Shown piece by piece: positions 2,859 to 7,959 of a stretch of DNA of 7,959 nt. The notes beneath the pieces are model-generated. The model saw only the letters and a list, made by a program, of their open reading frames with translations. It was not told the origin of the DNA and did not search any database. A program made the translations under genes and the position numbers. The DNA is from an uncultured Streptomyces sp. (GTDB lineage Bacteria > Actinomycetota > Actinomycetes > Streptomycetales > Streptomycetaceae): assembly GCA_946480485.1 (NCBI GenBank), contig CAMLJW010000234.1, positions 1-7,959 on the forward strand. Reading direction: 5' to 3'. Within the stretch, counting starts at the first letter, position 1. Every line of letters starts with the position of its first letter.

Positions 2859-3683
2859 TTACGGCGAAGTCGACGGCTCCTTGGCGTAGCCGGGGCAGTG
2901 GACGGGATCCATGCCGGGCTGCGGTGTGAAGTCGTGCCGGTCGTCGTCCGGGCAGTCGGCGCACGAGCCTGGCGTGACCGGGTCGTCGCCCTCGACGTGG
3001 ACGCTGTGGGGGTGCCCGCACTCCGCACACGCGCCGGGCGCGGCGTCGGCACGAAGCCGGTCGACGACCTCGCAGCAGCAGACCGTCAGCTCGGGTTCGA
3101 CACAGCCATGGTCGGGGCAGCGCTCGATGATCCACTCGAAGCGGTTCGGGGCAGCGGCTGGTGGCGTGTCGGCGGCCACACCCACGGCAGGCACGGCGGC
3201 GGCCATACGGCGCAGCTCGCGCATGGCGTCCTCAAGGCCGTTTGCCCAGCCGATCTCGTGGTCAGACAGGGCGCGCTCGTAAGCCTGATCCATCAACGTC
3301 TCGATGCGGTCGGCTGCTTCGCGGAGCACGGCGGACCGATCGACGGGCGCGGGCAGCACCGACAGCACAGCGTCGGCGAGGTGACTGTCGTAGTCGTCTT
3401 CGTCGGAGCCCATCGGCCCGGGCTCGCGCCAGCCTCCGCAGCAGCAAGGCAAGTTGCCGTCGGCGTCAGCCTCTTCCCGATTGGTGACGATGTAGTGCTC
3501 GCGCATGGCCTGCGCAGCCAGTTCGACGAGCGCGACCCGGTCTGCGGCAGGCACAACAGCAGCGGCCTGCCGCTCGTAGTTGACGCCCTTCCAGCAGATG
3601 ACGGCACCGTCGGGGCTGGCGAAGATCTCAGGGCCGAGGACGGTCACATCACCGTCCTGGTACGGGTACTGGCGGTCGGTCAT
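2859..3683 (-). CDS. Hypothetical protein with C-terminal Cys clusters, 274 aa
   Basis: ATG at 3683 has AAGGAG about 8 nt upstream; the open frame continues upstream but becomes Arg/Pro-rich there and overlaps the previous gene. The N-terminal part (1-40) is beta-like (DVTVLGPEIFASPDGAVICW). A helical region with ADRVALVELAAQAM follows at about 47-60, with a CCCGGW cluster at 80-85. A segment at about 114-162 (DRSAVLREAADRIETLMDQA, then AMRELRRMAA) is a pattern I recall from many uncharacterised Streptomyces proteins. From about residue 189 on there are many Cys/His: CPDHGC, CCC, CAECGHPHSVH and CADC, very likely one or two zinc sites. Soluble. No catalytic motif is recognised and no function is assigned. 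Modular composition could reflect fusion of separate phage domains. Confidence 0.88.
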   Translation of the reverse strand: MTDRQYPYQDGDVTVLGPEIFASPDGAVICWKGVNYERQAAAVVPAADRVALVELAAQAMREHYIVTNREEADADGNLPCCCGGWREPGPMGSDEDDYDSHLADAVLSVLPAPVDRSAVLREAADRIETLMDQAYERALSDHEIGWANGLEDAMRELRRMAAAVPAVGVAADTPPAAAPNRFEWIIERCPDHGCVEPELTVCCCEVVDRLRADAAPGACAECGHPHSVHVEGDDPVTPGSCADCPDDDRHDFTPQPGMDPVHCPGYAKEPSTSP

Positions 3684-3745: not shown

Positions 3746-4210
3746 TCACACAGCAGGCGAGGCAGGCGCCCTGTGGACGGTGAACCCACCGTCGGGGTGG
3801 CGGACGATCCAGTCGCCGAAGTAGGCGACGACGTGGTCCGGGTACTGGCCGACGCGCAGCCCAACGACTTGGAGTTCGCCGTCGACGGTCTGCCAGTAGC
3901 CCTTGGTGAAGACCCACGGGCGCATGCGATCGATCTCCCCTACGACGCGGCCGAAGCTGCGCGGGGTGAGTTCCCACGTCTTGCAGCCCGCGGCTTCCAG
4001 TTCGACGAGCGGCTTGCAGTGGTCGCATTCGGCGCGGACGTCGGTGAGGTTCCCGTGCTGGTCGACGTCGCGGTTGTCGGCGTCGCCGAGGTGCTGGCCA
4101 CAGCCGTTGCAGGCGCGCTTGATCTTGAAAGTGGTGGTCTTCGAACCGTCGTCGTTGACGGTGATCGCGTCGGGGGTGTTGGTGCGGGCGGGTAGGTCGA
4201 CGCTGGTCAT
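3746..4210 (-). CDS. Hypothetical protein with four-Cys zinc motif and GDWIVRHPDG C-terminus, 154 aa
   Basis: ATG at 4210 with AGGAG about 8 nt upstream gives 154 residues. After a basic, beta-like start (TTTFKIKRA) comes CNGCGQ (C34, C37) and later CDHC (C62, C65), a CxxC-x24-CxxC arrangement typical of a zinc ribbon. The C-terminal part (about 95-147) has VFTKGYWQTVDGELQVVG and ends VAYFGDWIVRHPDGGFTVHR. I recall similar GDW-I/V-R-x-P-D/G-G segments near the ends of many phage-encoded proteins of unknown function. The rare His-Asn-His-type residues needed for an HNH nuclease are not evident. Cytoplasmic. It is 58 nt after the helix-turn-helix gene and 62 nt before the 274-residue gene, so probably on one transcript. 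Confidence 0.9.
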   Translation of the reverse strand: MTSVDLPARTNTPDAITVNDDGSKTTTFKIKRACNGCGQHLGDADNRDVDQHGNLTDVRAECDHCKPLVELEAAGCKTWELTPRSFGRVVGEIDRMRPWVFTKGYWQTVDGELQVVGLRVGQYPDHVVAYFGDWIVRHPDGGFTVHRAPASPAV

Positions 4211-4982: not shown

Positions 4983-6347
4983 TCAGGTCTGGGCCATGTC
5001 GACGAAGCGGGCGTAATGCCCTTGGAACGCGACGGTGATGGTGGCGGTGGGCCCGTTGCGGTGCTTGGCGACGATCAGGTCGGCTTCGCCGGCGCGGGGG
5101 GATTCCTTCTCGTAGGCGTCTTCGCGGTGGAGGAGGATCACGATGTCGGCGTCCTGCTCGAGCGAGCCGGACTCGCGGAGGTCGGACGCCATCGGCTTCT
5201 TGTCCTGCCGTTGCTCCGGCCCGCGGTTCAGCTGCGAGAGGGCGACGACGGGAACCTGAAGGTCCATGGCGAGGGTTTTGAGGCCGCGGCTGATCCTCGA
5301 GACTTCCTGCTGCCGGTTGTCGCTACGGCCCTGGGATTCGCCGTTCATCAGTTGCAGGTAGTCGATCACGACGAGGCCGAGTCCGTGCTGACGCTGGATA
5401 CGCCTGCAGTTGGAGCGGATCTTCGCGAGGGTGATGCCGGTGTCCGCGACGATGAATAGAGGCGACGCCTGCATGTCCTTGCCTGCCTCGATCAGGTCAA
5501 GGATCTTTGCGTCGTCGAGTGGCCCCTTGGTCTTCATCCAGTGGAGCGGATAGGTGGCGTGGGCTGCGAGGAACCGCTTCTCGAGTTCCTTGCGGCCCAT
5601 CTCCAGGGAGAAGAACGCGGTGGGGATATCGTTGCGGATCGCGGTGTAGCGGGCGAAGTCTCCGGCGAGGACGGATTTCCCCATGGCAGGGCGGGCAGCG
5701 ATGAGGACGAACTGTCCGGGCTGCAGGCCGCCGGTGAGGGCGTCGAGGTCGGTGAACCCGGTCTTGAGGCCTTCTTTGGGACCGTGCTCGCGGATGTCGA
5801 CGACTTCGGCGACGGTGGCCATGATGTCCGCGCCGATGGAGAGGTCGTCGTCGCGGCCGTCGGTGAGGCGAGCGAGGCCTTCGAGGGTGTCGTAGGCGTC
5901 TTGGATGATCTCGTCGGGGGCGCGGGTGGGGCGGTGGACGCTGTCGGCCATGCCGTTGGCGGCTTTGAGGACTTTCCGCAGGATGGCTTTCTCGTGGACG
6001 ACGAGGGCGTACCACTCGCCGTTGGCGGCGGTGGGTACGGCGCGGGTGAGTTCGAAGGGGAAGGTGGGGCCGCCGCAGCGGGTGAGGTCGCCGTTCTTTT
6101 CGAGGCGGTGGGTGAGGGCGATGGGGTCGTGGACTTGGCCCTCGGTGTGGAGGTCGAGGAGTGCCCGGTAGATCGTTTCGTGTTGTGGACGGTAGAAGTC
6201 AGCGGGCTCGAGGATCTCGATGATCTCTTCGATGGCGCGGGTCGACAGGAGCATCGCGCCGAGGACGGCCCTCTCGGCTTCGAGGTCGAACGGCGGCTTC
6301 CGGTCAGGCTGGCCGTTGTCGTCGGGGGCGTCGCGGTCGTGGGTCAT
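4983..6347 (-). CDS. dnaB: Replicative DNA helicase, DnaB family
   Basis: Hexameric 5'-3' helicase that unwinds the replication fork. The 454-residue product is of normal DnaB length. The N-terminal helical domain spans about 19-125 (PFDLEAERAVLGAMLL, then DFYRPQHETIYRAL). The linker is about 145-190. The RecA-like ATPase domain carries Walker A ARPAMGKS (218-225), FFSLEM with the probable catalytic Glu at 249, Walker B VVIDYLQLM (326-334), SQLNRGPEQR (371-380), SDLRESGSLEQDAD (388-401) and KHRNGPT (428-434) with the Arg-finger-like residue at 430. All expected motifs are present and no intein or frameshift is seen. The ATG at 6347 overlaps the loader's TGA (ATGA) and has AGGAAGG about 5 nt upstream; the longer in-frame reading is Arg/Pro-rich wrong-frame sequence. 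A phage-encoded helicase fits with its own loader upstream. Confidence 0.97.
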   Translation of the reverse strand: MTHDRDAPDDNGQPDRKPPFDLEAERAVLGAMLLSTRAIEEIIEILEPADFYRPQHETIYRALLDLHTEGQVHDPIALTHRLEKNGDLTRCGGPTFPFELTRAVPTAANGEWYALVVHEKAILRKVLKAANGMADSVHRPTRAPDEIIQDAYDTLEGLARLTDGRDDDLSIGADIMATVAEVVDIREHGPKEGLKTGFTDLDALTGGLQPGQFVLIAARPAMGKSVLAGDFARYTAIRNDIPTAFFSLEMGRKELEKRFLAAHATYPLHWMKTKGPLDDAKILDLIEAGKDMQASPLFIVADTGITLAKIRSNCRRIQRQHGLGLVVIDYLQLMNGESQGRSDNRQQEVSRISRGLKTLAMDLQVPVVALSQLNRGPEQRQDKKPMASDLRESGSLEQDADIVILLHREDAYEKESPRAGEADLIVAKHRNGPTATITVAFQGHYARFVDMAQT

Positions 6348-6928
6348 GAGGCCTTCCTGAAGTCGGCGCCGGTGAACTTGACGAAGGTGGAGCCGCCGTC
6401 GGCGAAGCGGGACGTCGTGCGGGCGCCGAGCGGCTCGAGGGTGGGGAGGTTGGTGGAGATCAGCGTGGGGAGCTGGTTTTGCCACCGGTGGTCGATGAGC
6501 TGGGCGATGGCGTCGACGGTCCAGGGGTAGAGCTGGGTGGCGCCGAGGTCGTCGAGGGCTACGAGGGGGGCTTCGCGCCAGGCGTGGAGTTTGTCGAGGT
6601 TGGCGGGCCGGTCGGCGGCGGCTTTGAACTCGTAGTCGGAGATCAGGTAGTAGCGGCCGTACCAGCCGGCTTGGATGAGGAGTTCGCCGATCTTCCACAG
6701 GTGCCAGGTCTTGCCGGTGCCGGGTTCGCCGAGGAGGAGCAGCGAGGCGTGGGAGCCGGTGAGGTAGCCGTCGATCCATGTGTGGATCTCGGGCTTTACG
6801 GGTGCGTCGAGGGTGAAGGCTTTGGGCCGTCGGGCGAGGTAGCGGTCGAGGGTCTGGTTCCGGATTTCGTTGCGGGCTGCGGCTTGCGCTGCGTCGTGGC
6901 GGTTGCGCCTGTCGTCTGCGCTGGTCAC
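6344..6928 (-). CDS. DnaC-like AAA+ helicase loader
   Basis: A 194-residue AAA+ ATPase of the DnaC/DnaI/IstB group, expected to deliver the DnaB helicase to origin-bound initiator. Visible motifs are Walker A GEPGTGKT (67-74), Walker B LVALDDLGA (122-130), sensor-1-like LISTN (156-160), and SRFADGGS (173-180) with candidate Arg finger residues R170/R174. The N-terminal 45 residues are polar and charged and may contact helicase. It is somewhat shorter than E. coli DnaC (about 245 aa). The IstB alternative, a transposase partner, is unlikely because there is no transposase and the next gene is dnaB. The start is a GTG at 6928 that overlaps the initiator TAG by one base (TAGTG); no strong ribosome binding site precedes it, so expression probably depends on coupling. 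Confidence 0.93.
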   Translation of the reverse strand: MTSADDRRNRHDAAQAAARNEIRNQTLDRYLARRPKAFTLDAPVKPEIHTWIDGYLTGSHASLLLLGEPGTGKTWHLWKIGELLIQAGWYGRYYLISDYEFKAAADRPANLDKLHAWREAPLVALDDLGATQLYPWTVDAIAQLIDHRWQNQLPTLISTNLPTLEPLGARTTSRFADGGSTFVKFTGADFRKAS

Positions 6929-7833
6929 TAGAACGGGGTCGCTTTCTCGTAGTCCTCGGTGGTCCAGTTCTGTGCGGCGGCGCCGGTGGCGGGGTGCGGG
7001 CGGTTGGGTCCTGCTGTCCAGCCGCCGGACACGGCACGCAGCGCGGGCCGGCCGTTGGGCCCGGTGGCGTAGGTGTCCTCGTAGCGGGCTTCGCGGAGCC
7101 AGTTGACGGAGTGCTTCACGTAGCGGAAGTCCTCGTCTTGCTTCTCGCGGGCGTAGGCGATAGCGGCAGTGATGATCTGGCGGGGGTCTGCGCCCTTGCC
7201 GAGTGCCGTGCGCCAGGCGTCGAGGGTGGCGTCCTTGTTGCGGCTTTTGGGGTAGGCGAGCCAGAACTCACCGAAGAGCTTCATGTCGATGGGCGGGACA
7301 GAAGAATCTTCTTGAGGAGATGAGGGGTCTGAGGAGTAGGGGGTAGCCGTGGCTCCTTCAGAGTGAGCCACCGCTCCTTCTGAGTGAGCCGTGGCTACCC
7401 CTTGGGGTGGCTGAGGGGTAGCGGGGGCTCCTTCCGAAGGAGCGGTGGCTACCCCTTCAGGGGTAGCGGGGGCTCCCTCCCTAGGGGTAGCCGTGACTCC
7501 TTCCTTGGGGGTAGCGGGGGCTACCCCTGGGAAGTCGGGCACGCGGAATGTCATGCGGATGCCGGGCTTGGCGTACATGACCCGGCCGTCTTTCTTCGCA
7601 ACACCGATCGGGATGCGGAATTCCCAGCCGGCCGCCGCGAGCCGCTTCAGCGCGTTGCGTACGACGGCGGTGTCCTTCGCACCGGTCCAGCGGGCGAGGT
7701 CGTCGAGGGTTACCCAGCTGATGCGGGTCTCTTCTTTGGCGTCGTCTGCGATCTCCAGTGCGACCGCGCGTTGCAGGCCGGTGATGTCCGGGCCGAGCGC
7801 CTCGCGAAGGTCGCGGCGGAGCTTGAATCCCAT
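6928..7833 (-). CDS. Phage replication initiator / replisome organiser with embedded repeats
   Basis: The 301-residue product is taken to start at ATG 7833, preceded by GAGAAGAG about 9 nt upstream. An open in-frame extension exists to ATG 7956, but its codons lack the GC third-position bias, so it is read as leader. Residues 1-100 are a winged-helix-like DNA-binding region (ITGLQRAVALEIADDAKEE, SWVTLDDLARWTG, VVRNALKRLAAAGW). Residues 102-165 are a degenerate 7-8-residue repeat rich in Gly, Ala, Thr and Pro (units such as EGAPATP and GVATAPS), then a Ser-rich stretch. Residues 185-252 (FGEFWLAYPKSRNKDATLDA, then YVKHSVNWLREARYED) match a C-terminal region shared by many phage replication proteins. 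The layout resembles lambda O and SPP1 gp38: origin binding first, loader contact later. The domain calls are by eye; the role is supported by the loader and helicase directly downstream. Confidence 0.88.
   Translation of the reverse strand: MGFKLRRDLREALGPDITGLQRAVALEIADDAKEETRISWVTLDDLARWTGAKDTAVVRNALKRLAAAGWEFRIPIGVAKKDGRVMYAKPGIRMTFRVPDFPGVAPATPKEGVTATPREGAPATPEGVATAPSEGAPATPQPPQGVATAHSEGAVAHSEGATATPYSSDPSSPQEDSSVPPIDMKLFGEFWLAYPKSRNKDATLDAWRTALGKGADPRQIITAAIAYAREKQDEDFRYVKHSVNWLREARYEDTYATGPNGRPALRAVSGGWTAGPNRPHPATGAAAQNWTTEDYEKATPF
7300..7320. other. AT-richer patch beside the repeats, candidate unwinding element
   Basis: This 21-nt stretch is 8/21 G+C, far below its surroundings, and contains the dyad AGAAGA-A-TCTTCT at 7300-7312. 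It lies inside the initiator gene just downstream, in coding direction, of the GGGGTAGC repeats, where it encodes Ser/Gln/Glu-rich linker. In lambda the AT-rich unwinding region of ori lies beside the O-gene iterons in the same relative position. The role here is inferred. Confidence 0.4.
7340..7527. repeat. Iteron-like repeat cluster inside the initiator gene, candidate replication origin
   Basis: The octamer GGGGTAGC occurs five times on the plus strand (starting 7340, 7415, 7460, 7484, 7508) and its complement GCTACCCC three times (7394, 7448, 7520), with a one-mismatch copy, GGGGTGGC, at 7404. Three copies are exactly 24 bp apart (7460, 7484, 7508). A companion motif GGCTCCTTC or a close variant alternates with it (7351, 7426, 7471 and others). 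Perfect inverted pairs are GCTACCCC-TTCA-GGGGTAGC at 7448-7467, GGGGTAGC-GGGG-GCTACCCC at 7508-7527, and GCTCCTTC-C-GAAGGAGC at 7427-7443. The cluster encodes the initiator's linker. By analogy with lambda ori within gene O, these are likely initiator-binding iterons. Confidence 0.65.
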
Positions 7834-7959
7834 CGGGTATCTCTTCTCGTTCGTTCTGGTCAGGGCATGCGAAATGAACCCCCAGTTCAGGGAGGCTTGT
7901 TGACCTCTTGCCCTGCGCTTGATCCTACCGTCAATGGTGGCAAAACGCATATGCAATCT
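7834..7959 (-). promoter_or_regulatory. Leader/upstream region of the replication operon
   Basis: The 126 nt before the initiator start have visibly lower GC than the genes, and third positions in every frame lack the window's coding bias. On the minus strand TAGGAT (7927-7922) fits the actinobacterial TAGRRT -10 consensus; no good -35 lies 16-18 nt upstream, so promoter confidence is low. A dyad TGAAC-CCCCA-GTTCA sits at 7875-7889, between the candidate -10 and the gene, where an operator or 5' leader hairpin would lie. The palindrome GCATATGC is at 7947-7954. No gene is supported here. Confidence 0.35.

Follow-up and report, generated by a model that had tools for sequence, protein, structure and literature searches.

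A candidate replication origin of inverted repeats embedded in the linker of a phage-type initiator gene

What a densely repeated stretch of DNA is doing inside the coding sequence of a predicted replication initiator is the question raised by the locus studied here, a window of 7,959 nucleotides from an uncultured Streptomyces sp. The repetition may belong to the protein, to its messenger RNA, or to the DNA itself, and in the last case the sites may serve to start replication or mainly to control it. The evidence gathered here argues for an embedded origin resembling that of phage lambda, in which the initiator gene holds, within its linker, sites bound by its own protein to start genome replication; judged from sequence, we consider this highly likely. 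A sequence-only reading of the window had proposed such a lambda-like arrangement, and the comparisons below lend it support.

The initiator (table 1) matches the PHROG profile phrog_270, annotated "replication initiation protein" (E 6.3e-19; protein residues 9-265 on profile positions 37-258 of 383), across both of its domains, while the sole Pfam entry at E<=0.1 is HTH_36 (E 0.002), which does not reach the Pfam cutoff. In the structure model the predicted helix-turn-helix consists of helices 45-52 and 57-69, the latter the putative recognition helix, with a wing at 77-89 (model numbering). The C-terminal domain is modelled at residues 186-250 (pLDDT 86-96 per block), and in relatives it also occurs fused to other N-terminal domains. 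Between the predicted winged helix-turn-helix and this C-terminal domain runs the linker, PGVAPATPKEGVTATPREGAPATPEGVATAPSEGAPATPQPPQGVATAHSEGAVAHSEGATATP, of low complexity and with a period of 7 or 8 residues; the repeat array lies here, inside the coding sequence. The observation that a loader and a helicase follow extends from the window to its relatives: searched with the window's two proteins, 49 of 72 initiator loci have loader and/or DnaB relatives at or after the initiator end on the same strand, and among the 33 loci with at least 2.5 kb of downstream sequence the count is 27. Neither was found in L032, L138, L146, L169, L172 and L173, despite at least 2.5 kb downstream. Three further genes, all on the minus strand (3746-4210, 2859-3683 and 2-514), lack a Pfam match at E<=0.1; the last matches phrog_7575 (E 3.6e-40), a group of unknown function. 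Among the genes of the window none was identified as a virion gene; we infer that the element is a phage, a label that rests on the source collection of the relatives and on the gene types. At E<=1e-5 the initiator is matched by 2 of 50,697 phage records.

The repeats were first seen as an octamer, GGGGTAGC, of which eight exact copies in 188 bp had been reported. All eight do lie within 7340-7527, five on the plus strand (7340, 7415, 7460, 7484, 7508) and three on the minus strand (7394, 7448, 7520), and scanning all 7,959 bases returned no copy outside this cluster, as had been judged by eye; 200 dinucleotide shuffles of the window gave a mean of 0.35 copies and a maximum of 4. The exact 24-bp spacing (7460/7484/7508) and the three perfect inverted pairs (7394-/7415+, 7448-/7460+ and 7508+/7520-) described earlier are also as stated. 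A near copy, GGGGTGGC, is indeed present at 7404; it sits in the single long spacer and belongs to no dyad. What the sequence-only reading lacked is the array underlying the octamers: the repeat unit is a 20-bp dyad, 8-N4-8, rather than an octamer, and eight such dyads fill 7340-7527 (table 1) with start-to-start spacings of 24, 24, 24, 21, 33, 21 and 21 bp. Read along the coding (minus) strand, the half-site consensus G[GA][GA][GT][GTA][AT]GC fits 15 of 16 half-sites; the exact GGGGTAGC octamers make up eight of these 16, the others being GAAGGAGC (four), GAGTGAGC (two), GAGGGAGC (one) and GAAGGAGT (one). Within the window alone, palindromy is not clearly beyond synonymous nulls, since the two dyads with at least 7 of 8 pairs were equalled in 5,009 and 7,399 of 20,000 recodings under the two nulls, and the eight with at least 6 of 8 in 1,332 and 24; the dyad unit in the window thus rests on the relatives.

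Table 1. Features of the window and half-site types found in initiators with other N-terminal domains.
Feature	Position	Strand	Remarks
Initiator gene, 301 aa	6928..7833	-	ORF, ATG at 7833; N-terminal winged helix-turn-helix, repeat linker, C-terminal helical domain
N-terminal DNA-binding domain	7537..7833	-	predicted winged helix-turn-helix
Dyad D1, GGGGTAGC-CCCC-GCTACCCC	7508..7527	-	perfect
Dyad D2, GAAGGAGT-CACG-GCTACCCC	7484..7503	-	left half deviates from consensus
Dyad D3, GAGGGAGC-CCCC-GCTACCCC	7460..7479	-
Dyad D4, GGGGTAGC-CACC-GCTCCTTC	7436..7455	-
Dyad D5, GAAGGAGC-CCCC-GCTACCCC	7415..7434	-
Dyad D6, GGGGTAGC-CACG-GCTCACTC	7382..7401	-
Dyad D7, GAAGGAGC-GGTG-GCTCACTC	7361..7380	-
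Dyad D8, GAAGGAGC-CACG-GCTACCCC	7340..7359	-
Lower-GC stretch, candidate unwinding region	7274..7339	.	coding-downstream side of array
C-terminal helical domain, presumed partner-binding (loader/helicase) module	7090..7284	-	structure model; matches to phrog_10293/9327
DnaC/IstB-like helicase loader	6344..6928	-	IstB_IS21 E 1e-6; phrog_50 E 1.7e-21
DnaB-like replicative helicase	4983..6347	-	DnaB_C E 3.6e-93; phrog_19 E 9.3e-111
Half-site GGGCCAAC			L161, L163, L180
Half-site GGGCCAGT			L162
Half-site GGGGAGGT			L164, L165
Half-site GGTC[CA]CCC			L181, L194-L196
Half-site GGGTCCGG, centre 5 or (read by eye) 3			L182, L187; L183, L184, L191
Half-site GGGTCACC			L172, L173
Half-site GTCACG[CG]A			L185, L186
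Half-site ACGTACCA			L188; single dyad in L203
Half-site TCAGTGTC			L189, L190

Could the repetition be a by-product of the peptide, a low-complexity linker built of repeated Ala, Thr, Pro and Gly? The linker is low-complexity and periodic, as this would have it, and some palindromes arise already under the synonymous null. Eight octamers, however, were reached in none of 20,000 synonymous recodings drawn from the codon usage of the remaining window, and in none of 20,000 in which the linker's own codons were permuted. Codons that are rare elsewhere are enriched in the linker: GTA in 3 of 5 cases versus 7%, GCT in 8 of 15 versus 7%, and GGA in 5 of 8 versus 9%. Relatives carry the comparison further. 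Counting the window, the set comprises 37 distinct initiators that share its N-terminal domain; they come from viral contigs, from a single Streptomyces contig and from genomes of that genus. A profile built from 40 proteins, run against genomes from one host's genus and family, matched 29 of 392 and 25 of 394 respectively, the second draw overlapping the first. In the 179 in-frame dyads of these initiators, the sixth base of the half-site, which is a wobble base whichever way the half is oriented, is without exception A or T (358 of 358 halves); outside the linkers, by comparison, codons ending in A or T make up 18-20% of those for Gly, Val and Ala. These dyads were picked out by the peptide motif Ala-x-Ala, a choice that determines positions 7-8 of the half-site and leaves the wobble bases free; only 15 of the 179 are perfect.

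A scan free of reading frame, with a consensus derived from the same sequences on which it was scored, found 197 dyads in the initiator ORFs, 196 in linkers and one elsewhere, and none in the 214,492 bp that these loci contain beyond the initiator ORFs. The right half-site stands at exactly +12 for 196 of 213 left half-sites, and the spacings between dyads cluster at 21-24 and 32-33 bp. Of the linker dyads, 177 lie in one reading frame and 19 in another, the latter one each in 19 of the 37 loci (the window not among these), where the DNA encodes KGEPPLP and similar peptides in place of the usual GVATATP or GGAGATP. Two of the 37, L141 and L159 (a truncated ORF), lack in-frame dyads or consensus dyads wholly or almost wholly. 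The sequence-only reading had named as its refutation a linker whose peptide repeat is retained in relatives while the octamers drift; the reverse is seen, with the peptide drifting, even into another frame, and the DNA dyad kept. Wobble bases fixed against codon bias, one DNA site kept in two frames over unrelated peptides, and the return of dyads under the quite different peptides of other initiators, together with the recoding null, refute the by-product explanation, to which we assign a practically negligible probability. By this sequence evidence it is the DNA and not the peptide that is under selection.

Inverted repeats in a transcribed region could also serve as hairpins of the initiator mRNA, or as DNA cruciforms. 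The coding strand does fold better than its shuffles (z -7.4), in line with hairpins. The halves, on the other hand, pair at 6.006 of 8 positions and at 5.993 when shuffled between dyads, 2,249 of 5,000 shuffles reaching the observed value; the pairing itself is thus not conserved. No compensatory changes beyond chance were found within dyads in this shuffle of left and right halves, nor did Rfam give a match. Hairpins or cruciforms are accordingly very improbable as the reason for the array. Each half-site fits the common consensus on its own, as is expected of sites for a dimeric protein.

If the array is read by the initiator, the half-site should be considered beside the domain that would read it. 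Initiators with other N-terminal domains carry different arrays at the same place in the linker (table 1). The repeat survey of these other initiators covered 33 of 69 ORFs, and 28 representatives, picked for visible repeats, entered the domain comparison, where the window stands for the 37 of its own type; L193, L199, L200, L202, L032 and L111 were left out. Among the 27 counted in pairs (L188, which holds N, was dropped), related pairs being non-independent, the same half-site with at most one mismatch is shared by 19 of 31 pairs whose N-terminal domains are at least 50% identical, by 0 of 87 with a weaker N-terminal match and by 2 of 233 with none. For the C-terminal domain the corresponding counts are 11 of 39, 6 of 75 and 4 of 237. 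In this count GGGTCCGG and GGGGTCCG were scored as different, though both contain GGTCCGG with a different centre length; L164 and L167 represent one and the same contig, and L222, whose contig equals that of L164 in length, is probably the same element as L164. Combinations of domains point the same way. L161 and L172 have C-terminal domains 69% identical, no N-terminal match and different dyads, and L182 and L186 likewise combine a 70% identical C-terminal domain with no N-terminal match; in the other direction, the window and L160, as well as L181 and L194-L196, have the same half-site and no C-terminal match. The N-terminal domain of L160 is 74-76% identical to those of L161, L162 and L163 and 65% to that of the window, and its half-site is nonetheless the window's. 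Its recognition helix reads VVRNAIKRL and that of the window VVRNALKRL, as against S[VI]REMLRRL in L161, L163 and L180 and VVRDALRSL in L162. The helix [VIL]GKVLGKL is common to L181 and L194-L196, whose half-sites differ by one base. As far as sequences can tell, then, the half-site follows the N-terminal DNA-binding domain, down to its recognition helix, over the C-terminal domain.

The synonymous null was also applied ORF by ORF, to 47 ORFs with 100 recodings each and with 12 control genes, L215 (a 106-aa fragment) being excluded. In 41 of the 47, lambda O as positive control among them, the observed value beat all recodings, as it also did for 2 of the 12 control genes against all 60 of their own. 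Recodings reached the observed value once in 100 for L180, L197, L207 and L225, five times for L216 and 24 times for L209, the last two being clear failures. The excess lies above the highest of the 12 control genes in 37 of the 47; the ten below include lambda O, Brevibacterium phage Rousseau and L204, and this yardstick is strict for short arrays, since lambda O and L204 fall below it.

Sites for the cognate initiator need not be where replication starts. They could serve mainly for control, through autoregulation, handcuffing, incompatibility or partition, with the start elsewhere; all sequence evidence for cognate binding fits such sites equally, and the AT-richer step next to the array is modest. 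That step had been pointed out as a patch on the downstream side, and it is there, at 51.5% GC in 7274-7339 against 68.6% in 7340-7527 and 68.8% in the window, although 40-bp patches of equal or lower GC begin elsewhere (at 7918, 4119 and 7823). Over 34 of the 37 loci the 40 bp after the last dyad have a mean GC of 0.52 versus 0.60-0.74 in other bins, a modest dip; the lowest-GC 40 bp of the ORF begins 0-80 bp past the last dyad in 13 of the 34, or in 19 when starts up to 6 bp earlier are admitted. A pyrimidine-rich CTCCTCA... directly follows the array in 7274-7339 and in the type-1 relatives, and was seen by eye to be followed by CTAGCTAGC in several relatives.

The position of the sites is unlike that of a promoter operator. 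Measured from the GLQR motif at about codon 19, the distance to the first consensus dyad is 249-324 bp in 36 of 37 loci, the exception, L141, having no such dyad; this is far from a promoter position, and no consensus dyad occurs in the 214 kb outside the initiator ORFs. Loader and helicase genes usually lie downstream, and the counterparts with the same layout, in lambda, SPP1 and TP901-1/Tuc2009, are origins. A role mainly in control is, in our judgement, improbable. An embedded origin would operate as follows. Each 20-bp hyphenated dyad would be the site for a dimer of the N-terminal winged helix-turn-helix domain of the same gene's protein, and the array at 7340-7527 the initiator-binding part of the phage replication origin; dimers bound at intervals of about 21-24 or 33 bp might assemble into a compact complex, the adjoining AT-richer stretch would open, and the C-terminal domain could then recruit the loader and DnaB encoded next door.

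The best-known counterpart is phage lambda. There, according to PMC7466680, every iteron forms an inverted repeat, the O protein is dimeric, and the middle of gene O contains the iterons together with an AT-rich tract; O itself is laid out as an N-terminal DNA-binding domain, a linker and a C-terminal P-binding domain (PMC6022878). Lambda resembles the window in the place of the sites, mid initiator gene between DNA-binding and partner-binding domains, and in their form, ITN1-4 being inverted repeats of 19 bp minimal length beside the 20-bp dyads found here. In J02459 the iterons, ATCCCTCAAAACGAGGGA and variants, are hyphenated dyads annotated at 18 bp and 20, 24 and 23 bp apart, spacings by which they also occupy more than one reading frame. 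The suggestion that the mix of direct and inverted copies departs from lambda and may be a new architecture is therefore not supported, because the lambda iterons are themselves inverted repeats 20-24 bp apart; the window shows an architecture of the same kind with a larger number of units. Differences exist: lambda has four iterons (six in Stx phages) with A-rich centres, whereas the window has eight GC-rich 8-N4-8 dyads, and the window element, unlike lambda, encodes its own DnaB. Homology to lambda O was not recovered for the window initiator (hhalign probability 0.2), nor did it match PF04492 (Phage_rep_O) at E<=0.1, whereas lambda O itself does so at 5.7e-36; against the O-like phrog_678 the match is weak (E 0.0023), and the initiator is not counted as a member of the lambda O family (PF04492).

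Other phages offer likenesses of arrangement. In Bacillus phage SPP1, oriL lies in gene 38, and gp38, gp39 and gp40 are initiator, loader and DnaB-family helicase (PMC6316719); it shares with the window origin repeats inside the initiator gene and the trio of initiator, loader and phage DnaB, but its repeats are described there as direct and it has a second origin, oriR. In the lactococcal P335 phages TP901-1 (ORF13) and Tuc2009 (Rep2009), a repeat-rich region within the cognate replisome organizer gene is the ori (PMC8965321); these repeats too are described as direct, unlike those of the window. For some mycobacterial prophages the origin has been speculated to lie within repA, as in lambda (PMC7157519). 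Saliva phage D_HF5_3 and phage Rousseau match phrog_270 (2.6e-49 and 2.1e-21), as the window initiator does, and have repeated octamers in the linker that differ in sequence from the window's, the Rousseau array being within the control range; D_HF5_3 also matches the O-like phrog_391/678, matched by lambda O too, and so forms an indirect bridge. The best reading of the window is that of an embedded origin of the lambda O/ori kind as architecture, which would work like lambda O/ori, SPP1 gene 38 and TP901-1.

The embedded arrangement itself has long been known from lambda; here it very probably recurs in another set of phages, with sites that change along with the DNA-reading part of the protein. 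In the open-licence literature we found no published account of embedded dyads in this initiator family. New, on the present comparisons, are the family and its coordinates, the unusual clarity with which DNA takes precedence over peptide, and a natural series in which domains are paired with matching sites. The coordinates are those of a precise candidate origin in a family almost without isolated relatives, and the initiator linker suggests itself as a rule for locating such origins by sequence. Wobble bases that are fixed, and one site written in two frames, illustrate a DNA function that overrides protein sequence within a coding region, and different half-sites on related recognition helices offer a direct route to how a winged helix-turn-helix initiator selects its site. 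It is possible, though we hold it slightly less probable than its contrary, that, in phages and prophages of actinobacteria, the iteron-coding linker and the DNA-binding domain form a self-matched cassette that is swapped between C-terminal partner-binding domains and re-specified via one recognition helix. The roughly ten half-site types would then be a natural series of replication-compatibility groups, and would spell out a readable specificity code of this winged helix-turn-helix family.

Some arrays have features of their own. L197-L200, L202 and L225 are chromosomal helix-turn-helix genes whose linkers contain, towards their end, ACCGGCAC repeats that are mostly direct and spaced 20-23 bp (L197 shows them only as one-mismatch plus exact copies); this group is weak against the synonymous null and possibly represents a different arrangement. 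L172 and L173, with initiator ORFs from 2509 and 2539, combine the GGGTCACC N-terminal domain family with the L161-type C-terminal domain, and further downstream L172 has a single isolated dyad resembling that of L162, GGGACAGC-CACG-ACTGGGCC, which may be a remnant of an exchanged array. The TCAGTGTC half-sites of L189 and L190 stand about 11 bp from each other in a unit of about 27 bp, a dyad longer than in the other types, and the same octamer is present in L213 and L218.
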